Below are positions 2,480-14,758 of a DNA stretch of 14,758 nt, piece after piece. Positions within the stretch are counted from its first letter, which is position 1, and the number at the start of each line of letters is the position of its first letter. A program made the translations under genes and the position numbers. The notes beneath the pieces were generated by a model. The model made no database searches. It was given only the letters and a program-made list of their open reading frames with translations, and was not told the origin of the DNA. Origin of the DNA: Accumulibacter sp. (GTDB lineage Bacteria > Pseudomonadota > Gammaproteobacteria > Burkholderiales > Rhodocyclaceae); the NCBI GenBank assembly GCA_003538495.1, contig DPSD01000420.1, positions 3,830 to 18,587 on the forward strand. The letters are read 5' to 3'.

Positions 2480-2595
2480 TCGTTGATTTTCGGAGACAAT
2501 CCGGCAACCGACCGGATGCCGGGGCGTTTGCCGGCGTTGCCAACGGAATCATGCGCGGCGGACCCGGTCGAAAGGCCGAAGCCCTGGAGAACCGC

Positions 2596-3252
2596 ATGTC
2601 GCATTCTGCTCGCCGCCGCATCCTGCTGGCCACCGCCTCGGTCACCGGACTCGCGCTTGCCGTGGCCGCCTGGGCGGGGCTGTTGCGCACCCCGCCGCAG
2701 GCGCTGGGGCCGTTCTATCCGCAGCAACTGCCGCTCGACGATGACAACGATCTGGTCAGCGTCGCCGGGCAGAGTGGCATCGCGCGCGGCGAGATCTGCA
2801 ACCTGCATGGCCGCATCGTCGACGAGACCGGTCAGCCGCTGGCCGCTGCCCGGGTCGAAATCTGGCAGTGCAACGCCTTTGGCCGCTACCACCATCCCGG
2901 CGATCGCGGTGAGCGCCCTCTGGACCCCAACTTCCAGGGCTACGGGCGCTTCGTGACCGGCAGCGACGGCGGCTACCGCTTTCGCACCATCAAGCCCGTG
3001 GCGTACCCTGGCCGCGCGCCGCACGTCCATTTCGCGATCACGGTCGCCGGCCAGCCGCCGCTGATCACCCAGATGTACGTCGCCGGGGCGGCCGAGAACG
3101 TTGGCGACGGACTGCTCCAGAGCGTCCGTGACCCGCTGGCGCGGGCAGCGCTGATCGTCCCGTTCGAGCAACCGGCGGGCGGCGGCAATCTGCTCGCCCG
3201 CTTTGACATCGTTCTGGCAAAGCCTGGGCGGGCCGAGCCGGGCAGCCGGTGA
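2596..3252 (+). CDS. Exported intradiol ring-cleavage dioxygenase (protocatechuate 3,4-dioxygenase-like)
   Basis: This 218-residue protein resembles the intradiol dioxygenase family, which opens catechol-type rings between the two hydroxyls with a non-haem Fe(III). The four expected iron ligands can be placed: Y98 (in FGRYHH), Y137 (in VAYPG), and H143 and H145 (in APHVHF). The family's LGPFYP, LDPNFQGYGR and YRFRTIKP segments are also present. I chose the ATG at 2596 because GGAGA precedes it and the N-terminus then reads MSHSARRRILLATASV followed by a hydrophobic stretch to about residue 30. That looks like a Tat-type signal or membrane anchor, unlike the cytoplasmic catabolic enzymes. An upstream in-frame ATG at 2551 is less likely. 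The substrate cannot be read from sequence, and no other ring-degradation genes are nearby. Its stop overlaps the GTG of the transporter gene, so the two are probably co-transcribed. Confidence 0.85.
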   Translation: MSHSARRRILLATASVTGLALAVAAWAGLLRTPPQALGPFYPQQLPLDDDNDLVSVAGQSGIARGEICNLHGRIVDETGQPLAAARVEIWQCNAFGRYHHPGDRGERPLDPNFQGYGRFVTGSDGGYRFRTIKPVAYPGRAPHVHFAITVAGQPPLITQMYVAGAAENVGDGLLQSVRDPLARAALIVPFEQPAGGGNLLARFDIVLAKPGRAEPGSR

Positions 3253-4562
3253 CCGCACCGGCGGCGTCGGCCGCGCGCTGGGCGCGGCTGGTCGATTGCC
3301 GCCCGGGCGAGGGGCGAGCGCTGTGGTGGTCATTTTCCGGCTTCTTCCTGCTGCTTGCCGGGTATTACGTGCTGCGCCCGGTGCGTGAGGAGATGGGCGT
3401 CCAGATCGGTCCGGAGAAGCTGCAGTGGGCGTTCTCCCTGACCCTGGCCGGGATGCTGGCGATCGTCCCGCTCTATGGCTGGGCGGCGGCGCGGCTGCCA
3501 AGGCGCGCGCTGCTGGCGACGGTCTTCGGCATCACGGCGCTGGTGCTGGCAGGATTTCAGGCCTGGATCGCCGGTGGCGCTTCGCCCGCGGCGGCGCTGG
3601 CGCTCTTTGTCTGGGTCAGCGTCTTCAACCTCGTCGTCGTTTCGCTGTTCTGGACCGCGATGGCCGACAGCTTCGCGCACGCGCAGGCGCGTCGCCTGTT
3701 CGGGATGATCGCCGCCGGCGGCAGCAGCGGTGCGCTGGTTGGCCCGCTGATCACCGCCTTCGCGGTGCACGCGGTCGGCGTGCATGGCCTGCTGCTGGTG
3801 TCGGCCGCCTTGATGATGCTGTCGCTGCTGTGCATCCTGCGGGTGGTGGGTGGCCATTCCCGGCCCGAGGTGGGCCGGCCGCTCGGTGGCAACATCCTGG
3901 CCGGGCTGGCGGAGGTCGCCGCTTCGCCTTACCTGCTGATGATCGCGCTGGTGATCGTCTTGCAAAGCGTCGTTGGCACCTTGGTGTATTTCGAGCAGGC
4001 GCGGCTGGTCAAGGCGGCCGCCCTGACCACCGAGACGCGCACCCAGCTCTTTGCCGTGATCGATCTGGCGGTGAACCTGCTGGCGCTCGGGCTGCAGGCG
4101 ATGGTCGCCGGCCGTCTGATGCACAGGCTGGGCCTCGGCATCACGCTGGCGGCGGTGCCGCTACTGCTGGCGGTTCCGCTGGCGGTGCTGGCGGCGATTC
4201 CGGTGCTGACCGTGGTGCTGATCACCCAGGTCATTTCGCGGGCCGGCGGCCATGGCCTGATGCGCCCGGCACGCGAGGCGTTGTTCACGGCCGTCGATCG
4301 CGAAGCGCGCTACAAGGCCAAGAACGTTCTCGATACCCTGGTGTCGAGAGCTGGCGACGCCCTTGGCGGCTGGTTGTACGCGGCGGCCGGACTGAGCACC
4401 TCGGGCGTCGCGCTGGCGGCGATTCCCGGGGCCCTGGCGCTCGGCTGGCTGGGGCTGCGGCTTGGCAGGCGTTACCGGCAGCAGGTAGACGCGACAGCGG
4501 GCGCAGGCTCTATTGAGCAAGCGGGGCACGGCGCACTGGCGGCGACGTCGGCGCTGAAATGA
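3249..4562 (+). CDS. MFS transporter of the NTP/NDP exchange (ADP/ATP translocase-like) family
   Basis: A 437-residue integral inner-membrane protein with about 12 hydrophobic segments. The start is GTG at 3249, overlapping the dioxygenase stop (GTGA), a common form of translational coupling. The opening GRALWWSFSGFFLLLAGYYVLRPVREEMG, the motif FWTAMADSFAHAQARRLFGMIAAGGSSGALVGP and the late segment LMRPAREALFTAVDREARYKAKNVLDTLVSRAGD are typical of the MFS subgroup usually named Npt1/Npt2 or ATP/ADP translocase-like in free-living bacteria. In obligate intracellular bacteria relatives exchange ATP for ADP; in free-living hosts the substrate is unknown, and I would not infer energy parasitism. 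An AKR gene follows 12 bases after its stop. The linkage suggests transport of a metabolite handled by the two exported enzymes, but that is inference. Confidence 0.82.
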   Translation: MTAPAASAARWARLVDCRPGEGRALWWSFSGFFLLLAGYYVLRPVREEMGVQIGPEKLQWAFSLTLAGMLAIVPLYGWAAARLPRRALLATVFGITALVLAGFQAWIAGGASPAAALALFVWVSVFNLVVVSLFWTAMADSFAHAQARRLFGMIAAGGSSGALVGPLITAFAVHAVGVHGLLLVSAALMMLSLLCILRVVGGHSRPEVGRPLGGNILAGLAEVAASPYLLMIALVIVLQSVVGTLVYFEQARLVKAAALTTETRTQLFAVIDLAVNLLALGLQAMVAGRLMHRLGLGITLAAVPLLLAVPLAVLAAIPVLTVVLITQVISRAGGHGLMRPAREALFTAVDREARYKAKNVLDTLVSRAGDALGGWLYAAAGLSTSGVALAAIPGALALGWLGLRLGRRYRQQVDATAGAGSIEQAGHGALAATSALK

Positions 4563-4574
4563 AAGGAGAGCGTG

Positions 4575-5543
4575 ATGCAGGCAGGCGATAGCGGGTCGGC
4601 TGTTGATGGGCGGCGCGCCGCGCTGAAAGCGCTTGCCGCCGCCGGGCTGGCGCTGGCCGGGGGCGGCTTGGGTGCGGCAGCCGAGACGAAATCCGGCACG
4701 GCATCCGGCACGGCTGACAGCGGCATGCTCAGGCGCCGTATCCCCTCGTCGGGGGAGCTGATTGCCGCCGTCGGGCTTGGCACCTACCAGAGTTTCGACG
4801 CCGCCGATTCAGCTGACCCGGCGCTGGAGCAGGTGCTGGCGCGCTTCGTCGCGCGCGGCGGGCAGGTGGTCGACAGCTCGCCGATGTACGGATGCTCCGA
4901 ATCGGTGGTCGGCGATCTGTCGGCGAAACTCGGATTGCGCGAGCGGCTGTTCCTCGCCACCAAGGTCTGGACCAGCGGACGCGCTGATGGCATCCGGCAG
5001 ATGGAGACGTCGCTGACCCGCTTGCGGACCCGGCAGATCGATCTGATGCAGGTCCACAACCTGCTCGACTGGCGACTGCAGCTGCCGACGCTGCGCGAAT
5101 GGAAGCAGCAAGGACGAATTCGCTATCTCGGCGTGACGCACTACCACGAAGGCGCCTATCGCGAAGTGGAAGCGGTGCTGCGTGCCGAAAAGCCGGATTT
5201 CGTCCAGATCAACTACAGCATGGCCGAACGCGACGCCGAATCGCGCCTGCTGCCGCTGGCGCAGGAACTGGGGATCGCGGTGATCATCAACCGGCCTTTC
5301 GCCAAGGCGTCGTTGTTCGCGCGCGTGCGCGGCCAGCCGCTGCCTGAATGGGCGGTGGAATTCGACTGCGCCAGCTGGGCCCAGTTCTTTCTCAAGTTCA
5401 TCCTCGCCCAGCCGGCGGTAAGCTGTGCCATCCCGGCGACGAGCAAGCTGCAGCACCTGGAAGACAACCTCGCGGCCGGCCACGGCCGGCTGCCCGATGC
5501 GCGACAACGCGCCAGGATGTCCGAGTACCTGGCGCGGATCTGA
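4575..5543 (+). CDS. Tat-signal aldo/keto reductase
   Basis: A 322-residue NAD(P)H-dependent oxidoreductase with an (alpha/beta)8 barrel. The AKR catalytic tetrad is visible: D100 and Y105 (VVDSSPMYG), K130 (LATKVW) and H161 (QVHNLLD). Later family segments also fit: IRYLGVTHY, FVQINYSMAERDAE, and near the end SCAIPATSKLQHLEDNLAA. The ATG at 4575 follows AAGGAGAG; a GTG one codon earlier lies too close to that SD. The N-terminus DGRRAALKALAAAGLALAGGGLGAAA is a clear twin-arginine signal, so the enzyme probably acts in the periplasm after folding with its cofactor, as do other Tat-exported AKRs. It is the last gene of the dioxygenase-transporter-reductase unit. The natural substrate is unknown. 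Confidence 0.87.
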   Translation: MQAGDSGSAVDGRRAALKALAAAGLALAGGGLGAAAETKSGTASGTADSGMLRRRIPSSGELIAAVGLGTYQSFDAADSADPALEQVLARFVARGGQVVDSSPMYGCSESVVGDLSAKLGLRERLFLATKVWTSGRADGIRQMETSLTRLRTRQIDLMQVHNLLDWRLQLPTLREWKQQGRIRYLGVTHYHEGAYREVEAVLRAEKPDFVQINYSMAERDAESRLLPLAQELGIAVIINRPFAKASLFARVRGQPLPEWAVEFDCASWAQFFLKFILAQPAVSCAIPATSKLQHLEDNLAAGHGRLPDARQRARMSEYLARI

Positions 5544-5565
5544 ACACCGTCGAGTTTGGCGGTGT
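5544..5565 (+). terminator. Weak hairpin after the aldo/keto reductase gene
   Basis: ACACCG (5544-5549) pairs with CGGTGT (5560-5565) around a 10-base loop, directly after the AKR stop codon. Only a short pyrimidine stretch (CCGTCTT) follows, so it is a marginal intrinsic terminator. The 131-base gap lies between convergent genes, where a terminator is expected; nothing better is visible. Confidence 0.25.
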
Positions 5566-5674
5566 CCGTCTTCAGCGTGCCGAACAGCGGTCAAGCCAGC
5601 CGGTGGCAGAGGGGGCCGGCCAACGTCGGCTGTGCGGCGTCGGTCAGCAGAGAAACCCTGGCCCGGGTCAGCCC

Positions 5675-6118
5675 TCACTCCGGACGATCCAGCTTGGTCG
5701 ACAGGACGATCGTGGAAAAGGTATCGACCACCCCCTTGATGGCGCGAATCTTGTCGATGACGGCATCGAGCTCCTGGGTCGACTCGGTGGTCAGGATCGC
5801 GCACAAATCGTAGCGGCCGCTGATCGAATAGAGTTTGACGATCTCGTGCCGCCGGATCAGCCCCTTGATGACGTCGAATTCGGTCTTGGAATCGCTCGAT
5901 ATCAAGACCATCGCCCGGATGCTCGAATCGTGCCGCCGGGCCTTGAGGCTCACCGTGTAACCCGAAATGACCCCGCTGTCCTCCAGCGCTTTCAGGCGCA
6001 GCTGCACGGTGCTTCGGGCACAACCCAGCGACCTGGCCAGCGTGACGACCGGCAGGCGGGCATTGACCTTGAGCAGTTCAATCAGCCGCCGATCGAGATG
6101 GTCCAGGGTCCTCGCCAT
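5675..6118 (-). CDS. Lrp/AsnC family transcriptional regulator, divergent from kamA
   Basis: A 147-residue protein of standard Lrp/AsnC length. The N-terminal winged helix-turn-helix is clear (LDHLDRRLIELLKVNARLPVVTLARSLGCARSTVQLRLKALEDSGVISGYTV, about residues 5-56). It is followed by the ligand-sensing RAM domain (GRYDLCAILTTESTQELDAVIDKIRAIKGVVDTFSTIVL). Such proteins form octamers or dimers that bind amino acids and AT-rich palindromes. The start at 6118 has GAAGGAAAG upstream on the minus strand. It is transcribed away from kamA across a 160-base gap, the usual layout for a local regulator controlling the neighbouring pathway. I infer that it senses lysine or a pathway intermediate and controls the kam operon; the ligand cannot be read from the sequence. 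Confidence 0.9.
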   Translation of the reverse strand: MARTLDHLDRRLIELLKVNARLPVVTLARSLGCARSTVQLRLKALEDSGVISGYTVSLKARRHDSSIRAMVLISSDSKTEFDVIKGLIRRHEIVKLYSISGRYDLCAILTTESTQELDAVIDKIRAIKGVVDTFSTIVLSTKLDRPE

Positions 6119-6150
6119 GCGCTTTCCTTCACATTGTCGCCAGATCGGTC

Positions 6151-6180
6151 AGTATGACTGATTTGCGCACGGCATTTCAG
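6151..6180 (-). promoter_or_regulatory. Possible promoter of the Lrp/AsnC gene
   Basis: On the minus strand CTGAAA (6180-6175) and CATACT (6156-6151) are spaced by 18 bases and match sigma70 boxes at four and five of six positions. The -35 box lies inside the palindrome at 6171-6190, which would suit self-repression by the regulator. The boxes are weak and the call is tentative. Confidence 0.35.
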
Positions 6181-6190
6181 GCGAAATGCC
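6171..6190. promoter_or_regulatory. Perfect 8-4-8 palindrome, candidate Lrp/AsnC operator
   Basis: GGCATTTC (6171-6178) and GAAATGCC (6183-6190) are perfect inverted repeats around AGGC, placed between the divergent regulator and kamA starts. Size, symmetry and an A/T-rich inner part fit the sites bound by Lrp/AsnC proteins. It overlaps the likely -35 of the regulator and lies about 90 bases upstream of the kamA ATG, upstream of a weak TTTCCG-17-TAAACT pair (6193-6221) that could be the kamA promoter. A second, shorter inverted repeat (TTGAT 6239-6243, ATCAA 6253-6257) lies closer to kamA. Confidence 0.5.
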
Positions 6191-6278
6191 TGTTTCCGCC
6201 GGCTCGACTGGTCCCTAAACTGCGCCTCTGTCGTCGCCTTGATCGAAATTCAATCAATCGCACCGGGGAGGAAATCGC

Positions 6279-7460
6279 ATGCTCCAGACCGTCGAATTCA
6301 ACATCCAGAACAAGTTGCTGACCCGCGAAGCCCTGGACGCCTACGATCCGTCCGCAGAATCGTGGCAGAAGCAGTTTGCCCGTCGCTACACCCATCACTG
6401 TGACCTCAACGGGGTCCTCAACCACGTCGAGGACGTCGATCAGACGGTGTATGGCAAGTTCGCCGTGTCGATCACGCCGTACGTGGCGCAGCTGATGGAT
6501 CGCGATGACCCGAAGTGCCCGATCCGTGTGCAATACCTGCCGACCTTTGCCGAAGAGACCAGGCCCGGCTTCGCCACCATGCTGGATCAGCTGGGAGAAG
6601 AGGGCGACACCGTCCCCGGCACCAGTATCGTGCATCGCTATCCGCGCCGCGTGCTGTTTCTCGTTTCCAACACCTGCGCCACGCTGTGCCGCTTCTGCAC
6701 CCGCAAGCGCATGGTCTCGCAACCGGCCGGTTCCGTGCACAAGGACGAGATCGAACGTTCGATCGACTACATCGCTGCCAACACCCAGATTCAGGACGTG
6801 CTGCTTTCGGGTGGCGATCCGCTGACCTTTACCGACGAACGACTCGACTACATCCTCGGCGAAATCCGCCGTCGCGCGCCACACGTCCGCTTCCTGCGCA
6901 TGGGCTCGCGGATGGTCGTTCAACTGCCTACCCGGATCACACCCGAACTCTGTGCGGTGCTCGAAAAGCACCGCTTGCAGATGGTCAATACGCACATCAA
7001 CCACCCCAAGGAAATCACGCCGCTGCTCCGCGAGCGGGTCAAGATGCTGCAGAAGGCCGGCATCATGATGGGTCTGCAAACGGTTTGTCTGAAAGGCGTC
7101 AACGACGATGTCGAAGTGATGCGCGAACTCTTCCTGCAAGCCATTGAAATGGGTATTCGTCCCTACTACGTTTACTCGACCGACATGGTCGAAGGCGCCC
7201 ACCACTTCATCGTTCCGTATCACCGGATGCTGCAACTGTACGAAGGCCTGCGTGGCTGGATCAGCGGTCCGGCGGTCCCGACCTTCATCGTTGATGGTCT
7301 TGGTGGCCTCGGCAAGCTGCCGATCATCCCGAGCTACGTCAGGGAAGAAGACCTGCTGGACGGATCGGGAACGACGGTGAGGTGCCGCAACTACGCCGGC
7401 AAGACCGTCGAGATGCCGGGGCTGGGCCGCGACTACGCGCTACCGACGCACAGCAACTGA
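6279..7460 (+). CDS. kamA: L-lysine 2,3-aminomutase
   Basis: A 393-residue radical SAM/PLP enzyme converting L-lysine to L-beta-lysine, the first step of the 3,5-diaminohexanoate pathway. The 4Fe-4S/SAM motif is C133-ATL-C137-RF-C140. R142, two residues after the last Cys, fits the substrate carboxylate-binding Arg of the clostridial enzyme. D302 (YSTDMVEG) and D339 (IVDGLGG) are spaced exactly like the two Asp residues that bind the lysine side-chain amine, which favours lysine over glutamate or arginine as substrate. The PLP lysine is K346, but its motif reads GLGGLGK where the family usually has PGGGGK. ATG 6279 follows GGGGAGGA with six bases between. The protein is slightly shorter than the 416-residue clostridial enzyme. 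It is the first gene of the operon and is followed by a large palindrome before kdd. Relatives such as EpmB and glutamate 2,3-aminomutase are less likely given the residues and neighbours. Confidence 0.95.
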   Translation: MLQTVEFNIQNKLLTREALDAYDPSAESWQKQFARRYTHHCDLNGVLNHVEDVDQTVYGKFAVSITPYVAQLMDRDDPKCPIRVQYLPTFAEETRPGFATMLDQLGEEGDTVPGTSIVHRYPRRVLFLVSNTCATLCRFCTRKRMVSQPAGSVHKDEIERSIDYIAANTQIQDVLLSGGDPLTFTDERLDYILGEIRRRAPHVRFLRMGSRMVVQLPTRITPELCAVLEKHRLQMVNTHINHPKEITPLLRERVKMLQKAGIMMGLQTVCLKGVNDDVEVMRELFLQAIEMGIRPYYVYSTDMVEGAHHFIVPYHRMLQLYEGLRGWISGPAVPTFIVDGLGGLGKLPIIPSYVREEDLLDGSGTTVRCRNYAGKTVEMPGLGRDYALPTHSN

Positions 7461-7464
7461 TCGC

Positions 7465-7504
7465 CGCCAGACACCGGGCGCAGCGCTGCGCCCGGTGTCT
7501 GGCG
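7465..7504. repeat. Perfect 40-bp palindrome between kamA and kdd
   Basis: Two 20-base arms (7465-7484 and 7485-7504) are exact reverse complements with no spacer, centred on AGCGCT. It starts five bases after the kamA stop and ends 35 bases before the kdd start. In RNA it would form a very stable GC-rich hairpin. No U-tract follows (next bases ACTCCCCTTCG), so it is not a classical terminator. It could stabilise or partly end the kamA transcript and so set kamA expression apart from the downstream genes. Confidence 0.9.
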
Positions 7505-7539
7505 ACTCCCCTTCGTGAGGTCTGACCAGGTTTACTACC

Positions 7540-8577
7540 ATGCAACACGGCTCTCCCTGTGGCACGCACCGCGTGCTCGAACCGCTCGGTGTTCTCCCGC
7601 AAGGCGCGTGGAAGATCGACAACTCGATGGCGCTTTACGACAACGAAATCCTCATTGACGTGGCGGTGCTGAACATTGACGCGGCCAGTTTCACCCAGAT
7701 CAAACGCGAAGCGGCCGACGACCGCGCCAGCATCGCCAGCATCGTTCGTGGCATCGTTGAACGGCGTGGCAAACACCACAATCCGGTTACCGGATCGGGC
7801 GGCATGCTGATCGGGCGGGTTGCCGAGATTGGCCCGGCACTGACCGACAAGGTCGACCTCAGGGTGGGCGACAGGATCGCCACGCTGGTTTCGCTATCGC
7901 TCACGCCGCTGCAAATCACGACGATCAAGGAGATTCACCTCGACAGGGACCAGATCGAGGTCGAAGCGCAGGCGATCCTGTTTGAAACTGGCCTGTACGC
8001 CAAGCTGCCTGGCGACATTCCCGAGAAGGTCGCCCTGGCGATCCTCGACGTCGCCGGTGCGCCGGCGCAGACCGCGCGCCTGGTCCGTCCCGGCGACACC
8101 GTGGTGGTCGTTGGCGGTGGCGGCAAGTCGGGCACGCTTTGCGTTTACGAAGCACGCAAGCGCGCCGGCCCGGCGGGTCGCGTGATCGGCGTGTCGCCGT
8201 TTGCCAAGGACTGCGAGCGGATGCGCAAACTCGGCTGGGTCGATCACGCGCTGCAGGTCGATGCCACCGATGCGGTGGCGATGATGGACGCCATCGCCAG
8301 GGTGACCGCGGGCCGCATGGCCGACGTGGTGATCAACTGTGTCAACATCCAGAACACCGAAATGGGCAGCATTCTGGCCGCCCGCGACCGCGGCAAGGTC
8401 TACTTCTTCTCGATGGCGACGAGTTTTACCGCCGCCGCACTCGGTGCCGAGGGCGTCGGCAAGGACGTCGACATGATCGTCGGCAACGGCTACGCCAGGG
8501 ACCATGCGCTCTTCGCCCTGGCCCTGCTGCGCGAAAGTCCGAAGCTGCGGCAGCTGTTCGAAGAGTGGTACGTCTGA
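7540..8577 (+). CDS. kdd: L-erythro-3,5-diaminohexanoate dehydrogenase
   Basis: A 345-residue NAD(P)-dependent dehydrogenase that oxidatively deaminates 3,5-diaminohexanoate to 5-amino-3-oxohexanoate and ammonia, the step after the B12 mutase. The N-terminus (GTHRVLEPLGVLPQGAWKIDN, then YDNEILIDVAVLNIDAASFTQIK) is characteristic of Kdd. The nucleotide-binding fold is marked by VVVVGGGGKSGTLCVYEARKRAG, with the glycine-rich turn at about residues 192-197. The length equals that of the usual family member. The ATG at 7540 matches the conserved N-terminus, although no strong SD precedes it (an ACCAGG lies 9 bases upstream). kamB starts seven bases after its stop. Confidence is high from sequence and from the complete pathway around it. 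Confidence 0.93.
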   Translation: MQHGSPCGTHRVLEPLGVLPQGAWKIDNSMALYDNEILIDVAVLNIDAASFTQIKREAADDRASIASIVRGIVERRGKHHNPVTGSGGMLIGRVAEIGPALTDKVDLRVGDRIATLVSLSLTPLQITTIKEIHLDRDQIEVEAQAILFETGLYAKLPGDIPEKVALAILDVAGAPAQTARLVRPGDTVVVVGGGGKSGTLCVYEARKRAGPAGRVIGVSPFAKDCERMRKLGWVDHALQVDATDAVAMMDAIARVTAGRMADVVINCVNIQNTEMGSILAARDRGKVYFFSMATSFTAAALGAEGVGKDVDMIVGNGYARDHALFALALLRESPKLRQLFEEWYV

Positions 8578-8584
8578 CCGTCGC

Positions 8585-9688
8585 ATGGGGGAACAGGCTT
8601 TTCACGTGAACCGGCAGGCAGTCACGGGCGGCAGCGCCCTCTGGCACCAGATTCGCCAACGTCGTCTGACGACGCTGGCGGTCGTCGGGATGACCAAGAA
8701 CACCGGCAAGACTGTGGCCTTGAATCATCTTCTGGTCTGCGCTGCAAGGGATGGCGTGGCCACTGGCGTGACCTCGATCGGGCGCGACGGAGAAGAACGC
8801 GATCAGGTCTTCTCCATCCCGAAACCGCCGGTGCTGGTCTGCTCGGGTACCATCGTCGCCACCGCCCGCCACACGCTGCCGCGCGCCAAGGCGCGATGGA
8901 AACTGCTCGCCGGCACGGGATTGGCCAGCCCGATGGGCGAGATCGTCATCGTCCGGGCGCTGGAGCACGGCGCGATGGAAGTCGCCGGCGCGTCGCGCGG
9001 TTCCGATCAGCAAGAAGTGCTCGCGCAATTGAGGCAGTGCGGTTGCGCACTGATCGTCCTTGACGGAGCCCTTGGTCGTAGCCAGCACGCTTCGCCAGCG
9101 ATCGCCGAGGGAATGATTCTGGCCACCGGTGCGGCCCTCGGCGGCGGCGTTCCGGATGTCATCCGCAAGACGCGCGACCGGCTGGCCATTCTGGACATCC
9201 CCCAGGCTGGTCCGGAGATTCTGGCGCGCTGCGCTGCCGTTTTCGAGCACCGGGGCGTCGGCATCTGGGATCGCACCGGCAGGCCGCTGTTTCGCGCCGA
9301 CATCGCGACGCTCAACGCCGGACCGGCGTTGCTCGCCTTTGCCGGCCGGGAAGTCGCCACGATTGCCGTCAGCGGCGCCGTCGGCAAGGCGCTCTGGCTG
9401 ACCATCGACGCGCTCCTCGCAAGGCACCCCGGGCTGACGCTGGTCGTTGCCGACGGCACCAAGCTGTTCATCGAACACGCCGATGTCACGCGTTTCCGCA
9501 ACCAGGGCGGCAGCCTGCTGGCATCTCGGCGCATCACCATTGCCGGCATCACCGTGAATCCCTGCTCGCCGCATGGCGGCCATCTCGTCGCCGAAGAGCT
9601 TCTCGGCGCAGCCCGTCTGGCGTTTCCCGAACATCAGGTGGCCGACGTGATTCTCGAACGAGCACCTACGAAAACAGGAGTCTGTTGA
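8585..9688 (+). CDS. kamB: KamB-like P-loop protein, probable lysine 5,6-aminomutase reactivation subunit
   Basis: A 367-residue protein encoded directly before kamD; its TGA overlaps the kamD ATG by one base. It has a Walker A motif, VVGMTKNTGKTVALN (P-loop at about residues 35-43, K42), and a C-terminal half ending in LVVADGTKLFIE... ITVNPCSPHGGHL. I recognise this layout from the KamB proteins of clostridial and fusobacterial lysine fermentation loci. There KamB and the MutS-like KamC are thought to reactivate the B12-inactivated lysine 5,6-aminomutase. The product name comes from that family knowledge and not from a motif that proves function. No kamC gene follows here, so either KamB works alone or a KamC is encoded elsewhere. 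The ATG at 8585 has no clear SD; an in-frame GTG at 8606 is a possible alternative start. Confidence 0.78.
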   Translation: MGEQAFHVNRQAVTGGSALWHQIRQRRLTTLAVVGMTKNTGKTVALNHLLVCAARDGVATGVTSIGRDGEERDQVFSIPKPPVLVCSGTIVATARHTLPRAKARWKLLAGTGLASPMGEIVIVRALEHGAMEVAGASRGSDQQEVLAQLRQCGCALIVLDGALGRSQHASPAIAEGMILATGAALGGGVPDVIRKTRDRLAILDIPQAGPEILARCAAVFEHRGVGIWDRTGRPLFRADIATLNAGPALLAFAGREVATIAVSGAVGKALWLTIDALLARHPGLTLVVADGTKLFIEHADVTRFRNQGGSLLASRRITIAGITVNPCSPHGGHLVAEELLGAARLAFPEHQVADVILERAPTKTGVC

Positions 9689-11244
9689 TGACGCGTCTGC
9701 ATCTCGACCAGGAACAAATCGACCGCGCCCGGGACTCGGCACGGCGCATCGCTCGCCGTGTCTTCGAGCAAACGAAGCCGTTCACCACCACCACCGTCGA
9801 GCGCGCCACCGTTCGTCTGCTCGGCGTCGATGGCGTCGATGAAAACATGGTGCCGCTCCCCAACCGGCTGGTCAGCCATTTGCAGGAGCGCGATCTGCTG
9901 CAACACGGTGCCGCGACGAGCGTTGTCGGCGCGATGATCGAACGCGGCTGGACGGCGCAGCAGGTCGCCGAAGCGGTCGCCGCCGGCACGCTGACGATCG
10001 GGCGCTGCCAGGATGAACAGGATGAAGCGGCGCTGCGCGCGGCCACCACCGCCGAAGCGCGCAAGATGCGCGATCACATCGCCCGGCAGCGCGCACACCG
10101 GGATCGCGAAATCGAATCGGTCGGCGAAAGCCGTAGGCCGTGGCTTTACCTGATCGTCGCCACCGGCAACATCCACGAAGACGTGCTGCAAGCGCGCGCC
10201 GCTGTCGAGCAGGGCGCCGACATCATCGCCGTGATCCGCTCGACCGGCCAGAGCCTGCTCGACTATGTGCCCTACGGCGCGACCAGCGAAGGGTTCGGCG
10301 GCACCTACGCCACCCAGGAAAACTTCCGCCTGATGCGCTCGGCGCTCGACGAGGTGGGTGCCAGCGTTGGTCGCTACATTCGCCTGACCAACTACTGTTC
10401 GGGTCTGTGCATGCCGGAGATCGCTGTCATGGGCGCGATCGAACGGCTCGACATGATGCTCAACGATTCGATGTACGGGATCATCTTCCGCGACATCAAC
10501 ATGCAGCGGACGTTCATCGACCAGTTCTTCTCGCGGATGGTCAACGCCTACGCCGGGATCATCATCAACACCGGTGAAGACAACTACCTGACCACCGCCG
10601 ATGCCTGCGAAGCGGCGCACACCGTGCTCGCCTCGCAACTGATCAACGAGCAGTTTGCGTGTCTGTCGGGCCTCAAGCCGGAGCAGATGGGGCTGGGTCA
10701 CGCCTTCGAGATCGATCCCGAAATGGAGAACGGTTTCCTCTGGGAAATTGCCCATGCGCAGCTGGTCCGTCAGGTGTTCCCCGACGCGTCGCTCAAGTAC
10801 ATGCCGCCGACCAAACACATGACCGGCAACATCTTCCGGGGCCACGTCCAGGACGCGCTGTTCAACGTCGTCAGCACGGTGACGCAGCAGGACATCCACC
10901 TGCTCGGGATGATGACCGAAGCGATCCACACACCGTTCATCCAGGACCGTTTCCTGGCGATCCAGAACGCCAGGTACGTCTTCAACAGCATGCGCGATCT
11001 GCACGCCGAAATCGAGTTCAAGCGCGGCGGTCAGATCGAGCGTCGTGCGCAGGCCGTGCTCACCGAGACCGAGCAGCTTCTGGCGCAGATCGAAGGCATC
11101 GGCCTGCCGGCAGCCATCGGCAAGGGCATCTTTGCCGATATCTCGCGCCAGCCGGACGGCGGCAAGGGTCTCGATGGCGTGATTGCCAAGTCCGGCGACT
11201 ATTTCAACCCATTCCCGCATCTGATGTTCGAAGGAGGGCACTGA
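9688..11244 (+). CDS. kamD: Lysine 5,6-aminomutase alpha subunit
   Basis: An 518-residue large subunit of the adenosylcobalamin- and PLP-dependent mutase that moves the terminal amino group of beta-lysine (or D-lysine) to carbon 5. The fold expected is a TIM barrel holding PLP and the deoxyadenosyl side of B12. Residues I recall as PLP contacts in the Clostridium sticklandii enzyme fall at the same numbers: R184 and S189 (AVIRSTGQSLLDYVP), S238 (NYCSGLC) and Y263 (NDSMYGI). The length also matches that enzyme closely. ATG 9688 is preceded by ACAGGAG with seven bases between and overlaps the kamB stop (TGATG), indicating translational coupling. A TTG one codon upstream is not needed. It acts as a complex with KamE, encoded one base downstream. 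Confidence 0.95.
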   Translation: MTRLHLDQEQIDRARDSARRIARRVFEQTKPFTTTTVERATVRLLGVDGVDENMVPLPNRLVSHLQERDLLQHGAATSVVGAMIERGWTAQQVAEAVAAGTLTIGRCQDEQDEAALRAATTAEARKMRDHIARQRAHRDREIESVGESRRPWLYLIVATGNIHEDVLQARAAVEQGADIIAVIRSTGQSLLDYVPYGATSEGFGGTYATQENFRLMRSALDEVGASVGRYIRLTNYCSGLCMPEIAVMGAIERLDMMLNDSMYGIIFRDINMQRTFIDQFFSRMVNAYAGIIINTGEDNYLTTADACEAAHTVLASQLINEQFACLSGLKPEQMGLGHAFEIDPEMENGFLWEIAHAQLVRQVFPDASLKYMPPTKHMTGNIFRGHVQDALFNVVSTVTQQDIHLLGMMTEAIHTPFIQDRFLAIQNARYVFNSMRDLHAEIEFKRGGQIERRAQAVLTETEQLLAQIEGIGLPAAIGKGIFADISRQPDGGKGLDGVIAKSGDYFNPFPHLMFEGGH

Positions 11245-11245
11245 G

Positions 11246-11986
11246 ATGGCCCAACGACTGGTCAAGCCCTATGGCGACACCCTCAACGACGGCCGCGTCC
11301 AGCTCTCCTTCACGCTGCCGGTCGCCCTTGACGACACCGCCAGGGAAGGCGCCAGGCAACTGGCCCTGATGATGGGCCTCGAAAATCCCGCGGTGGCGCA
11401 CGCGGAGGCGATGGGTCCGGACTTCAGCCTCTTCATCGTCTATGGCCAGTGCACGCATCAGCTCGACCTGTCGACAATCACCGTCTCCCGGCCCGAGTTC
11501 GAGACCCTCGACAAGGATCGCATCGACCGTCTGATCGCCGACAAGATGGGCCGCAAGATGGTGGTCATCGGTGCCTGCATCGAAACCGATGCCCATACCG
11601 TCGGCATCGATGCGATCATGAACATGAAAGGCTGCAACGGCCACAAGGGTCTGGAGAGCTATCACCAAATGATCGCCATCAACCTCGGCGCGCAAGTCGA
11701 TTCGGAAGATCTGGTCGCCAGGGCCATCGAAGAGCAGGCCGACGTCATTCTGGTGTCGCAAGTCGTGACCCAGAAGAACATCCACCTCGATAACCTGACC
11801 AGGCTCGTCGATCTGCTCGAAGCCGAAGGTTTGCGTGACCAGGTGATCCTGATCGTCGGCGGCCCGCGGATCAGTCACGAGCTGGCCAAGGAACTCGGTT
11901 ACGACGCCGGCTTTGGCACCAGGACCTATGCCGAAGACGTCGCGTCGTTCGCCATCCACGAATGGATCAAGAGAAATGCCGCCTGA
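11246..11986 (+). CDS. kamE: Lysine 5,6-aminomutase beta subunit (B12-binding)
   Basis: A 246-residue small subunit carrying the cobalamin-binding Rossmann domain. The base-off/His-on motif is D115-A-H117-T-V-G120; H117 is the lower axial cobalt ligand. K128 in MNMKG is exactly 11 residues after that His, the spacing seen for the PLP Schiff-base lysine of the clostridial beta subunit, so the cofactor-bridging lysine is conserved. The downstream [11 protein letters not shown] and IVGGPRIS segments match the remaining B12-domain signature (S171, G205-G206). An N-terminal dimerisation region of about 100 residues precedes it. The start has AAGGAGGG at 11231-11238, the best SD in the operon, and lies one base after the kamD stop. 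kal follows after 10 bases. It forms the active heterotetramer with KamD and likely depends on KamB for recovery after inactivation. Confidence 0.95.
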
Positions 11987-11996
11987 GGAAATCACC

Positions 11997-12395
11997 ATGC
12001 AGGAACTCACCAGCCTGATACGTCTGCGGATCAGCGCGCACGATGCTCATTACGCCGGCGGACTGGTCGACGGTGCAAGAATGCTGAACCTGTTTGGCGA
12101 TGTCGCCACCGAGCTGCTGATCCGCAGTGACGGCGACGAAGGCTTGTTCGTCGCCTACGACCGTATCGAGTTTCTCGCCGCGGTCCATGCCGGCGACTTC
12201 ATCGAAGCCAGCGGGCGTATCGTGTCGTTTGGCCGGACCTCGCGCAAGATGGTTTTTGAAGCCCGCAAGATCATCGCATCGGCCGGCATCGCCGGTCAGC
12301 CGTCGGCCGCCGACGTGCTCACCGAGCCGATCGTCGTCTGCCGAGCTTCCGGTACCTGCGTGGTTCCGGCTGACTGCCAGCGTATTCCGCGCTGA
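11997..12395 (+). CDS. kal: 3-aminobutyryl-CoA ammonia-lyase
   Basis: A 132-residue hotdog-fold enzyme that eliminates ammonia from L-3-aminobutyryl-CoA to give crotonyl-CoA, the last dedicated step of the pathway. The N-terminal [36 protein letters not shown] and the central [24 protein letters not shown] are typical of Kal; the family length is about 130 residues. I chose the ATG at 11997, although the frame is open further upstream, because it gives the conserved N-terminus, follows TGAGGAAATCACC (GAGGAA as SD) and does not overlap kamE. kce begins nine bases after its stop. A generic thioesterase is the main alternative for a small hotdog protein, but the sequence and location make Kal much more likely. 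Confidence 0.92.
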
Positions 12396-12404
12396 ACAGC
12401 GGCA

Positions 12405-13228
12405 ATGGACCAGCTGATCATCACCGCGGCCCTGACCGGCGCCGAAGTCACCCGCGAACAGCAGCCGGCGCTACCGCTGACGCCGGACGAGATCGCCGCC
12501 GCCACCGAGAGGCCTGCGTCGAGGCGGGCGCGTCGATCGTTCACCTGCATGCGCGTCGTCCCGACGGCACGCCGACCCAGGACCCGGTCGTCTATCGCCA
12601 GATCATCGCGGCGATCCGCGCCCGTTGTGACGTGATCGTTCAGGTGTCGACCGGCGGTGCGGTCGGCATGACGCCTGCGGAGCGGCTGGCGCCGGTGGCC
12701 GTGGCACCCGAAATGGCCACGCTATCGATGGGTTCGGTCAACTTTGGCGGTGACGTCTTTCTCAACCATCCGGCGGACATGGAGGAGTTCGCGCGGAAGA
12801 TGAAGGAACTGGGCGTCAAGCCGGAACTGGAGATCTTCGATTCAGGCATGCTCACCACCGCCGAGCGCTGGATCAGGCAGGGACTGCTCGATTCGCCGGT
12901 TCATGTCGACTTCGTCCTCGGCGTTCCCGGCGCCATGGCGGGCACGCCCGAATCGCTGATGTTCCTGCGCTCGCAACTGCCGCCGCGTGCGACCTGGACG
13001 GTGGCCGGCATCGGGTCGGCCCAGCTGCCCCTGGGCGTGATGGCCATCGTTCTGGGTGGCCATGTCCGCGTCGGCTTCGAAGACAACGTCTTCTTCCGCA
13101 GGGGGGAACTGGCGACCAGCAATGCCCAGCTGGTCGCCCGCATCGCCAGGATCAGCCGCGAGATGGACCGTCCGGTGGCGACACCCGACGAAGCACGCAG
13201 CATCCTCGGGCTCGCGCGCCCGCGTTAA
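12405..13228 (+). pseudogene. kce: 3-keto-5-aminohexanoate cleavage enzyme, interrupted by a one-base frameshift
   Basis: Kce (a DUF849 family Zn enzyme) condenses 5-amino-3-oxohexanoate with acetyl-CoA to give 3-aminobutyryl-CoA and acetoacetate. The frame from ATG 12405 encodes the conserved start MDQLIITAALTGAEVTREQQPALPLTPDEIAAATE, then breaks near 12510. From 12512 the protein continues in the next frame (ACVEAGASIVHLHARRPDG... to the stop at 13226-13228). Restoring one missing base near 12510 gives about 274 residues, the usual length. All key features are then present: E14, the Zn ligands H47 and H49 of VHLH, S82 of QVSTGG, and the late R/E/D group of HVRVGFEDN with the third Zn ligand E226. 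Codon use stays clean after the break, so this is either a sequencing or assembly error or a very recent mutation. As written, no active enzyme would be made unless ribosomes shift frame. Confidence 0.88.
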
Positions 13229-13422
13229 ACCTGCGAGCGGGTGCATAGCGGCGACACCAAAAAGGTGAGCGCCAGACAATCTGAAAACGCCAGTGATCTG
13301 CAGGCGTTTCAGCCGGAAACGAGCGGTCAACTGCCGTTTCCAGGATGAACACCTGCCTGGCCCACGTCAGGTGTGTACTGCGCGTGGTGCGCTCGAACAG
13401 TTGCACATCCAGGTCGTACTCA
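13229..13422. other. Non-coding stretch after kce
   Basis: No credible gene is visible. The only notable structure is the hairpin at 13281-13312. The remainder, up to the tRNA-like fragment, shows no SD-preceded frame and no recognisable protein. Confidence 0.5.
13281..13312 (+). terminator. Hairpin at the end of the kam operon
   Basis: CTGAAAACGCC (13281-13291) pairs with GGCGTTTCAG (13303-13312) with one bulged A and an 11-base loop, 52 bases past the kce stop. No U-tract follows, so it is at best a weak terminator or an RNA 3'-end protecting hairpin. A much stronger terminator lies 160 bases further on. Confidence 0.35.
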
Positions 13423-13463
13423 CAATCCAGAGGTCCAGGGTTTAAGTGCCTGCGGGCCCACCA
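13423..13463 (+). other. Decayed 3' end of a tRNA gene
   Basis: The stretch AGGTC, T-arm CAGGG-TTTAAGT-GCCTG (13436-13452), acceptor strand CGGGCCC (13453-13459), A and CCA (13461-13463) has the shape and order of a tRNA 3' half. The T-loop has lost the conserved TTC (it reads TTT) and one stem pair is broken. No matching 5' acceptor strand (GGGCCCG) is found about 70 bases upstream. A strong intrinsic terminator follows six bases later, as after many tRNA genes. I read it as a truncated tRNA remnant, possibly left by integration at a tRNA gene. The amino-acid identity cannot be assigned safely. Confidence 0.42.
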
Positions 13464-13469
13464 AACCAG

Positions 13470-13502
13470 AAGACCAACCCCTCATCGGGTTGGTCTTTTT
13501 TT
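13470..13502 (+). terminator. Strong rho-independent terminator
   Basis: A perfect 11-bp stem (AAGACCAACCC, 13470-13480, with GGGTTGGTCTT, 13487-13497) encloses the loop CTCATC and runs into seven consecutive T bases (13496-13502). It lies just after the tRNA-like fragment and would also stop any transcript reading through from kce. Confidence 0.88.
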
Positions 13503-14203
13503 GACTACTCCCGCGTGTTGGCGCGGGTTCGTGGGGGTTCCTGTGGACTTCGGCTTTTCGCTCGGGCGCCCGGATTTGGCCGTTTTCACTCTCTCCGGGC
13601 CGTTTTCTCTCCGGGGTCGCTGCCCTTGGAGACTCGAAGTCCACGAGTTCGCGAAATTGCACCGTTATGAATGAACAGCTTATATGTGGTCCAATCAAGC
13701 GGTTGATTGGTGGCATTGGTAGGCGGTGGAAACAGCGGCGCCAGACCAGAGAGCGAAGACTGCTGGGTCCATGACTGGTTGGCGGGTCGCTTGCCGGCCA
13801 GCTGCCGGCCTTCAGTATCGTCGGTCCGAGCGTTTGCTCGGCGGCAGGTGCTGCCATTGAAGCGCTTCTCGAAGCTCCGAACCGACGAATCACCGCTTCC
13901 AAATTCGCTGCAGGACTGCTCGCGACCCAGACCTGCCTGATGCGTTTATCGTGGTTCATGGCGGCTTCCTGATCCGCAAGCCGCCGGTGACGGGAATATG
14001 ACGTCGGCCCGCTCGTCGGCCGAAGCCGCCAGCGGGTATATGGACTGATTGGGCCCGCACTGCATCAGTTAACCGGCATTATGGAGCAGCCACCCCAACC
14101 CCCTGGGGCCTTCCCGGTGCCAACGATTCTTTCCAGCAGGCGCATTCTGTGAGCCCGGCCACGGATAAGCTGGTGTGCATGACGTACACCGTGAGCCGAT
14201 GCG
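13503..14203. other. Non-coding, hairpin-rich region before the transposase
   Basis: About 700 bases without a credible gene; the longest frame (minus strand, 13420-13959) crosses the terminator and tRNA fragment and has low-complexity, unrecognisable protein. Structures seen: CCCGCG/CGCGGG (13510-13527); a 10-bp inverted repeat GTGGACTTCG/CGAAGTCCAC (13543-13552 and 13635-13644); an imperfect duplication of GGCCGTTTTC..CTCTCCGGG (13578-13599 and 13598-13616); an 8-4-8 palindrome at 13691-13710; and CCGAGC/GCTCGG (13826-13841). It should also contain the left end of the insertion sequence, but I could not identify a terminal inverted repeat because the right end is outside the window. Confidence 0.5.
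13691..13710. repeat. Perfect 8-4-8 palindrome CCAATCAA/TTGATTGG
   Basis: CCAATCAA (13691-13698) and TTGATTGG (13703-13710) are perfect inverted repeats around GCGG in the gene-free stretch. It could be an operator, a small hairpin or an insertion-related remnant; no neighbouring gene explains it. Confidence 0.6.
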
Positions 14204-14758
14204 ATGAGTCTGCATTTCCTGCTGAAAGCCGAAGCCCGTACTTTGTCCCTGGTGGAGGTCCTGGGCATGAGCGACGATGACGCTTTTGCCCTGTTCCGGC
14301 GCGTGCGCTGGGGCGATGGGGAGGAAGTGGTCTGCCCGCACTGCGGTATGGTGCACCGGCACTACTTCCGGCCGGCCCGCAAGATTTGGCGCTGTGCAGG
14401 CTGCGAGGGAGATTTCTCGGTCACGTCCGGGACGATTTTCGCCTTCCACAAGCTGCCCTTGCGCCTGTACCTGGCGGCGGTGATCCTGTTCGTCAACGCC
14501 GTGAAGGGCATTTCCGCGCTGCAGGTGGGCCGCGATCTGGGCGTGTCCCACAAGACCGCCTACGTCCTCCTGCACAAGATCCGGGAGAGCTTGCTGGTGG
14601 GCCGGGAGGAATCCGCTCTGCAGGGCGAGATTCACGTGGATGGAGCGTATGTCGGCGGGAAGGTGCGACCGGAGAACAAGAAGGAAGACCGGGTGGACCG
14701 GCGCCTGGCGGAGAATCAAGACCTGGACAAGCGCTGCATCCTGGTGATGCGCGAGGCG
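14204..14758 (+). CDS. IS1595-family (ISXO2-like) transposase, N-terminal part, runs off the right edge
   Basis: The frame is open from ATG 14204 to the last base: 185 residues with no stop. An in-frame TGA at 14192 makes 14204 the first possible start. Residues 44-67 form the zinc ribbon expected in this family (C44-PH-C47 and C64-AG-C67, with YFRPARKIWRC between). Then come FSVTSGTIFAFHKLPLRLYLAAVILFVNAVKGISALQVGRDLGVSHKTAYVLLHKIRESL, a helix-turn-helix-like part, and the start of the DDE-type domain at GEIHVDGAYVGGKVRPENKKEDR, where D146 is the first catalytic acid. The remaining catalytic residues lie outside the window, so activity cannot be judged. The family call is confident. Full members are usually about 300 residues or more. 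Confidence 0.88.
   Translation, partial: MSLHFLLKAEARTLSLVEVLGMSDDDAFALFRRVRWGDGEEVVCPHCGMVHRHYFRPARKIWRCAGCEGDFSVTSGTIFAFHKLPLRLYLAAVILFVNAVKGISALQVGRDLGVSHKTAYVLLHKIRESLLVGREESALQGEIHVDGAYVGGKVRPENKKEDRVDRRLAENQDLDKRCILVMREA
14204..14758 (+). mobile_element. Partial IS1595-type insertion sequence
   Basis: The element is recognised only from its transposase. The left terminal repeat should lie between about 14040 and 14203, but I could not define it without the right end for comparison, so the start given is that of the transposase gene. No target duplication could be checked. Confidence 0.65.

Follow-up and report, generated by a model that had tools for sequence, protein, structure and literature searches.

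The 3,5-diaminohexanoate route of lysine fermentation, familiar above all from fermenters of gut and mud, is encoded in clostridia and fusobacteria by kamA, kdd, kamB/C, kamDE, kal and kce, and a gene set of this kind in a betaproteobacterium raises the question of whether it is the same pathway, how it came to be there and what it could do for its host. We analyzed a stretch of 14,758 nucleotides from Accumulibacter sp. (assembly GCA_003538495.1, contig DPSD01000420.1, positions 3,830 to 18,587; hereafter the window), in which seven consecutive genes on the plus strand, kamA, kdd, kamB, kamD, kamE, kal and kce, occupy positions 6279-13228. We consider it likely (probability about 0.8) that these genes, linked to an Lrp-family gene, form a lysine-catabolism cassette that was acquired horizontally. 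The cassette is real and its core is ordinary; what is unusual is its KamA, the missing kamC, the insertion setting and the host.

The cassette and the proposed pathway

The window was compared with the best 80 of 352 confirmed genome loci, of which 35 were assigned to the betaproteobacteria from the titles of their records (one of these titles reads Gammaproteobacteria and two read Proteobacteria). The order lrp (minus strand), kamA, kdd, kamB, kamD, kamE, kal, kce is complete in 27 of the 35, some of which have kamD and kamE fused, and in the remaining eight genes are missing only where the contig ends. Dechloromonas sp. CZR5 (L025), which is not labelled a metagenome-assembled genome, is among those with the complete order. 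The unit is the Lrp-family gene plus the seven genes (5675-13228). The locus of Candidatus (Ca.) Accumulibacter necessarius (L001) gives a single alignment with the window, at 86.5% DNA identity over 5666 to 13223, which starts at the end of the Lrp-family gene, stops where kce ends and goes no further; the Lrp and KamA proteins of the two are 94% and 93% identical. An earlier, sequence-only reading of this DNA had placed the pathway at 6279-13228, which leaves the lrp gene outside, and mentioned neither that gene nor the divergent KamA, the broken kce frame or the junctions.

Open reading frames (ORFs) of the window were assigned to families by NCBIfam equivalog and Pfam cut-offs (Table 1). 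That earlier reading took the seven genes for the route from lysine to crotonyl-CoA and acetoacetate, and this stands in part: all seven genes are present and kdd, kamB, kamD, kamE and kal exceed their cut-offs, including the four (kdd, kamD, kamE and kal) by which we tested for the 3,5-diaminohexanoate pathway, but kamA and kce fall below theirs. KamD also matches the structure 1xrs_A with 687 bits, and KamE, aligned to 9q1a_A, carries the DAHTVG and NMKG motifs, which we take to have cobalamin and pyridoxal phosphate (PLP) roles. By family models the reaction set is the same as that of the clostridial and fusobacterial system, and the window's KamD is 62% identical to that of Acetoanaerobium noterae and 59% to that of Fusobacterium vincentii. 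The window differs from that system in its divergent KamA, in that no kamC was found, in the attached Lrp gene, in the betaproteobacterial host and in the interruption of kce. No aminotransferase family was matched among the window ORFs scanned.

In the pathway that we propose, the KamA-like enzyme would convert L-lysine to beta-lysine, and KamDE, using adenosylcobalamin and PLP and reactivated by KamB, would convert beta-lysine to 3,5-diaminohexanoate, which Kdd would oxidise to 3-keto-5-aminohexanoate. With acetyl-CoA, Kce would then give 3-aminobutyryl-CoA and acetoacetate, and Kal would turn 3-aminobutyryl-CoA into crotonyl-CoA and ammonia. From these products, enzymes of the host that the cassette does not encode would lead to acetoacetyl-CoA, acetyl-CoA and probably to polyhydroxybutyrate (PHB), not to butyrate. 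The cassette would derive from a Bacillota-type operon, with its own divergent KamA in place of the usual one; in the window's lineage it has the gene of an aldo/keto reductase on one side and a fragment of a tRNA(CAU) gene on the other.

Several results weigh against this reading. The window's KamA scores 324.5 against TIGR03820 (AblA), 200 bits short of the cut-off of 525.4, and since all 49 other KamA-family rows aligned share the seven catalytic positions that it keeps, these do not establish lysine as its substrate. An intact kce is not found in the window sequence; because the gene is not open, the pathway as read is incomplete. Even the commonest neighbour family, with neighbours compared by clustering and without family annotation, is limited to 8 of the 35 loci, and a gene for acetoacetate or crotonyl-CoA thus does not travel with the cassette as a rule. 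Finally, in an enrichment of Ca. Accumulibacter similis SCELSE-1, a strain that may or may not carry the cassette, lysine led to no measurable phosphate release (PMC12766714).

A divergent KamA

Among the families scanned, the window's KamA and four further betaproteobacterial KamA proteins (317-326) score best against TIGR03820 itself; the window protein meets only the broad KamA-family model TIGR00238 (267.6 against a cut-off of 199.2). The model performs as expected on operon KamA proteins from Sporomusaceae (L035; 580.1) and Bacteroidales (L048; 625.4). In a comparison of mean identities across the seven proteins KamA was the sole outlier. Between betaproteobacteria and Bacillota it reaches 0.41 (only four of the eight Bacillota loci entered this figure, the rest giving no match or less than 80% of the length), as against 0.65 between Bacillota and Bacteroidota, and its mean identity to the Bacillota and Bacteroidota operon KamA taken together is likewise 0.41. 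Within the betaproteobacteria, by contrast, none of the other six proteins is as conserved as KamA (0.86). In a tree of 74 rows the 11 betaproteobacterial KamA sequences form one clade (support 100), whose stem measures 3.06 changes per column; the point of attachment of this clade is not settled and long-branch effects are possible.

We next compared the residues of the active site with those of lysine 2,3-aminomutase from C. subterminale (2a5h). C125, C129, C132, R134, D293, D330 and K337 (2a5h numbering), which we take to be the iron-sulphur cysteines, the PLP lysine and substrate-contact residues, are present in the window's KamA and in all 32 betaproteobacterial rows, but equally in every one of the 34 operon rows and of the 49 other rows of the KamA family; this conservation supports an active aminomutase, not lysine specifically. 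Unlike 2a5h, none of the 32 betaproteobacterial rows has C268, and each has a single cysteine after the PLP lysine with no CxC/CxxC cluster. Such a C-terminal cluster, presumably supplying zinc ligands together with C268, is present in 32 of 34 operon rows and in 17 of the 49 others. An AlphaFold2 model of the window's KamA is of moderate quality (mean predicted local distance difference test score 72.5, low around the active site) and has 2a5h as its clear top structure match (E 2.2e-30, 39-40% identity), the next protein lying at 1.7e-6.

These data bear on whether the protein is some other aminomutase, in which case the route would start differently, for example from imported beta-lysine or from D-lysine. 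The score far below TIGR03820, the low identity to the operon proteins, the long stem and the missing cysteine cluster all fit such a view. However, kamA is the first plus-strand gene in all 27 complete betaproteobacterial loci, the protein is highly conserved among these loci, TIGR03820 remains its best-scoring family, and 32 of the 49 other KamA-family rows lack the C-terminal cluster as well, so that its loss is not unique. We consider a different aminomutase unlikely and retain a lysine 2,3-aminomutase role for the KamA-like protein as the proposed first step.

A donor of the betaproteobacterial KamA type was looked for and not found: among the matches listed, the best reached 46% in 398 Pseudomonadota genomes (the centre genome, G001, excepted) and 48% in 299 Bacillota genomes. 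A search of 380 genomes from the class to which G008 belongs, with E <= 1e-88 as its limit, gave no match; it had no positive control, and the limit hides canonical KamA types. The open literature searched yielded nothing relevant on KamA subfamilies.

The kce reading frame

The kce ORF as first read, of 198 amino acids, is the C-terminal part of the protein only, so that the earlier assignment of kce holds for the presence of the gene but not for this ORF as a whole. It begins at position 74 of NF052387 and scores 299.8 against a cut-off of 382, which it misses because the frame breaks. With the L001 protein as a tblastn query, residues 1-35 matched 12405-12509 in frame 3 (80% identical) and residues 35-272 matched 12509-13222 in frame 2 (238 amino acids, 90% identical), and in the DNA alignment the window has two extra bases relative to L001 at the break near 12509. 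In L001 kce is a single frame of 275 amino acids. The His-x-His residues of Kce, which we take to be its zinc ligands, lie after the break and before an internal GTG at 12632, and therefore the 198-residue ORF would not be active.

If the break is real, the pathway may be dead in this organism and the whole block a decaying passenger, a possibility that we regard as serious although somewhat less probable than its opposite. Besides the break itself, it is favored by the tRNA fragment at the junction, which is degenerate, and by an insertion sequence (IS) transposase gene that lies further on. Yet lrp, kamA, kdd, kamB, kamD, kamE and kal are all open against L001, and kce past the break is no worse conserved than its neighbours; with 80% and 90% identity to L001 before and after the break, the gene does not look long decayed. 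Full-length Kce homologues of 278 amino acids (P0122, P0123) that are 94-95% identical to the 198-residue part exist, and one single break is explained equally well by an error of sequencing or assembly. The interruption, judged from the alignments, would thus be either a recent mutation or a sequencing error, and we continue to read the block as a lysine-catabolism cassette.

KamB without kamC and related operons

Within the DNA examined, kamB has no kamC-like gene beside it in any betaproteobacterial locus (0 of 35). A gene resembling the one that lies between kamB and kamD in L048 was found in 35 of the 80 loci, with none in L034, L035 or L037, and the open literature searched yielded nothing relevant on the KamB/KamC reactivase. 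The operons of the Bacillota loci L035 and L037 have the order kamA-kdd-kamB-kamD-kamE-kal-kce without kamC, as in the window, and their KamD, Kdd and Kal are 67-79% identical to the window's; their KamA is only 40-41% identical and, unlike the window, they gave no lrp match. In the variant of Ca. Cloacamonas, kamA, kamD, kamE, kdd and kce are shared with the window but Kat stands in place of Kal, for which the window has kal (PMC3149608).

As a side observation, KamD and KamE are fused into one protein of about 790-815 amino acids in some relatives (P0007, P0013, P0015 and others; L010, L014, L015, L036).

Distribution and origin

The cassette is patchily distributed. KamD was found in 2 of 28 genomes of the genus, in 8 of 297 in a sample of the family and in 1 of 399 in a sample of the order, namely the centre genome itself; the 35 betaproteobacterial loci, from GTDB species genomes, show that the cassette recurs, these being samples and not a census. 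Of the named loci, those closest to the window come from Ca. Accumulibacter necessarius (L001), with a KamD identity of 87-88%, and from Accumulibacter sp. (L003), with 84%. Together with both flanks, which match the genus, they bear out the betaproteobacterial host that had been suspected; judged by these sequences, the host is a relative of Accumulibacter, a wastewater bacterium that stores phosphorus. The surprise expressed at finding the genes in such a host is only partly warranted. Among 120 KamD homologues listed are records named Accumulibacter, Rhodoferax, Azospira, Azoarcus, Aromatoleum, Undibacterium, Paucibacter and Noviherbaspirillum, and since these database records already bear the gene names, betaproteobacterial presence is not new as annotation. 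No description of the pathway in betaproteobacteria or of this KamA subfamily was found in the literature searched, which mostly did not cover subscription journals.

A KamD phylogeny, which the sequence-only reading had proposed as a check, nests the betaproteobacterial sequences within Bacillota (Shimodaira-Hasegawa-like approximate likelihood ratio test, SH-aLRT, 97-99). The 23 betaproteobacterial rows, including the window, form one clade (97) that is sister to the Negativicutes-labelled L032 (99) within other Bacillota (99); the tree, of 45 rows, comes from a quick tree search with SH-aLRT values only, and two rows of the Bacteroidota outgroup fall on the wrong side. L032, a contig of only 3.6 kb in a bin of 1.3 Mb, could be misbinned. 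For the other proteins, mean identities between betaproteobacteria and Bacillota, followed by those between Bacillota and Bacteroidota, were 0.63 and 0.59 (kdd), 0.31 and 0.28 (kamB), 0.65 and 0.62 (kamD), 0.61 and 0.59 (kamE), 0.73 and 0.69 (kal) and 0.61 and 0.52 (kce).

Plasmid carriage was considered and rejected, as a tblastn search of 72,556 plasmid records with KamD returned two, from Acetoanaerobium and Fusobacterium, both of chromosome size (2.1-2.6 Mb). A contig labelled Lokiarchaeota (L065) carries kce, kdd, kamA, kamB, kamD and kamE, with kal unmatched. In eight related loci (L005, L006, L007, L008, L010, L014, L015, L017) a minus-strand gene of about 320 amino acids follows kce, accompanied in seven by a second minus-strand gene of about 385 amino acids and in five by a further Lrp-like gene, which suggests a wider amino-acid catabolism block.

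Junctions and proposed insertion site

Within 2528-5555 the left flank aligns at 77-83% DNA identity to 12 contigs of genus genomes, 11 from genomes without KamD and one from G002. The nine of these that reach the aldo/keto reductase gene stop at 5534-5555, and five of the nine stop at the same place when longer stretches are compared. The left-flank genes have 73-89% protein identity to Accumulibacter. The gene for a protein of the major facilitator superfamily (MFS) was matched in 14 of the 28 genus genomes (12 at 76-87%, one in pieces at 72-87% and one at 44%); it has no match in the genome of L001 and one in that of L003.

On the right, from 13413 onwards and so 185 bases past kce, the window resembles the last part of a tRNA(CAU) gene (its 3' exon and terminator) and what follows it downstream, with 81.8-89.2% DNA identity to six loci (L158-L163) in alignments of 49-434 bases. 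The alignment extends to 13844 in L160 alone, and in L162 there is a further, weaker match (73.7%). The 3' end of this gene occurs once each in 22 of the 28 genus genomes. A search for the fragment as an ordinary tRNA or tmRNA failed; ARAGORN with introns allowed settled its identity, finding in all six loci a tRNA(cat) split by an intron of 247-261 bases. With introns allowed ARAGORN found no tRNA in the window, without introns it found none at all, and Rfam found nothing on the window or on the right flank alone. At lax limits Rfam gave group I intron matches in both loci so scanned, L160 (38.9 bits) and L163 (31.7 bits), each under the cut-off of 50, and at the gathering level nothing in L159 and L163. 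We take this intron to resemble the Azoarcus tRNA intron. The copy in the window is degenerate, and no intron sequence was matched.

The MFS gene and the tRNA(CAU) gene lie about 2 Mb apart on one contig in G023, the sole genome that permits the comparison, and on different contigs in the others. A junction at the 3' end of a tRNA gene and the absence of KamD from most sister genomes (present in 2 of 28) are what is expected of a genomic island; general scans of the short window gave no integrase family among its ORF families. We infer that the cassette was inserted at, or recombined with, the tRNA(CAU) gene.

That the contig is misassembled, or a Firmicutes fragment, would account for window neighbours that differ from those of L001. 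This is very improbable, since the left genes and the right tRNA region both match Accumulibacter at the identities given above, the Lrp and KamA proteins agree closely with those of Ca. Accumulibacter necessarius, and the guanine-plus-cytosine (GC) content is unbroken at the junctions. The sequence-only reading would have been overturned by binning to Firmicutes or Fusobacteria, but both flanks match genomes of the Accumulibacter genus and neither supports a Firmicutes contig. The high GC content that it reported was confirmed (0.60-0.71 throughout the window), as were its PEP-CTERM protein (TIGR02595, 20.2 against 16; PF07589, 22.3 against 20.7) and its DUF3300 protein (275.8 against a cut-off of 25). 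The part of the IS1595-family transposase present, about 1 kb to the right of kce, scores 61.7 bits against NF033547, below the cut-off of 75.

Table 1. Features of the window with their coordinates, strand and the evidence for each
Feature	Position	Strand	Evidence and remarks
Dioxygenase_C-domain protein, MFS-family protein, aldo/keto reductase	2551..5543	+	Pfam; left-flank host genes outside the cassette
Lrp/AsnC-family regulator	5675..6118	-	PF13404 and PF01037 over cut-off; divergent from kamA; cassette member
Candidate operator TCGGTCA-GTA-TGACTGA	6145..6161	.	Between lrp and kamA
kamA-like radical S-adenosylmethionine (SAM) aminomutase, separate subfamily	6279..7460	+	Over cut-off for TIGR00238, below it for TIGR03820
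kdd, 3,5-diaminohexanoate dehydrogenase	7540..8577	+	NF052381, 271.7 vs cut-off 200
kamB, lysine 5,6-aminomutase reactivase subunit	8585..9688	+	NF052386, 309.7 vs cut-off 210; start codon read
kamD, lysine 5,6-aminomutase alpha	9688..11244	+	NF052384, 860.5 vs cut-off 600
kamE, lysine 5,6-aminomutase beta	11246..11986	+	NF052385, 380.6 vs cut-off 280
kal, 3-aminobutyryl-CoA ammonia lyase	11997..12395	+	NF052388, 184.5 vs cut-off 160; start codon read
kce, frame interrupted	12405..13228	+	Two frames by tblastn with L001 protein; PF05853 from 12509
Degenerate 3' exon of tRNA(CAU) gene, terminator and downstream sequence	13413..13844	+	Right junction
IS1595-family transposase, truncated by window end	14204..14758	+	PF12760 and PF12762 over cut-off; outside the pathway

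Possible regulation and fate of the products

A palindrome close to TCAGTCA-NNN-TGACTGA, with at least 11 of 14 matches, was found in 20 of 31 lrp-kamA intergenic regions where 0.21 would be expected from base shuffles, although the motif was picked after viewing 9 of the 31 regions and related sequences inflate the count. The Lrp protein may bind at this candidate site and so regulate the cassette. A sigma-70 scan found no promoter-like site in 5500-14758.

The enzymes that might receive the products were searched for in the genomes of relatives. PHA (polyhydroxyalkanoate) synthase (TIGR01838) had matches in all seven betaproteobacterial kam genomes scanned, five of them over the cut-off, with scores of 490 and 496 in the two Accumulibacter genomes among them (cut-off 622.65), and in none of three Bacillota-labelled kam genomes. 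Of 12 genomes, 9 scored over the cut-off for acetoacetyl-CoA synthetase (TIGR01217), namely 6 of the 7 with kam genes and 3 of the 5 without, as did none of 14 controls. For butyrate kinase (TIGR02707) none of the 12 genomes and 4 of the 14 controls did so. These counts indicate that activation of acetoacetate and entry into PHB or acetyl-CoA would be possible in relatives, and that butyrate formation via the kinase is unlikely there. Crotonyl-CoA reductase (TIGR01751) was over the cut-off in 5 of 12 genomes (1 of 7 kam-bearing, 4 of 5 kam-less) and 1 of 14 controls; as it occurs mostly in kam-less genomes it is not tied to the cassette. Conserved downstream acetoacetate genes were rejected as a candidate on the neighbour counts given above, and the available part of PMC9723799 contains nothing on lysine catabolism. 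In the window's own host a link to PHB may be supposed from its relatives.

Meaning for Accumulibacter and the aminomutase family

The rare cassette would be a simple genetic marker predicting which Accumulibacter strains could differ in their response to lysine. It is tempting to speculate, and we offer it as a tentative and rather doubtful idea, that the KamA of betaproteobacteria represents a new aminomutase subfamily, distinct in function, which took the place of the clostridial type within the operon and lacks the C-terminal cysteine (zinc) module, and that with a KamC-free reactivase it suits lysine fermentation to facultative respirers that store PHB, Accumulibacter among them; strains with the cassette could then draw on lysine for carbon under anaerobic conditions. 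The divergent KamA provides a natural test of the purpose of the C-terminal cysteine module in lysine 2,3-aminomutase, and KamB without KamC a test of how the 5,6-aminomutase gets reactivated.

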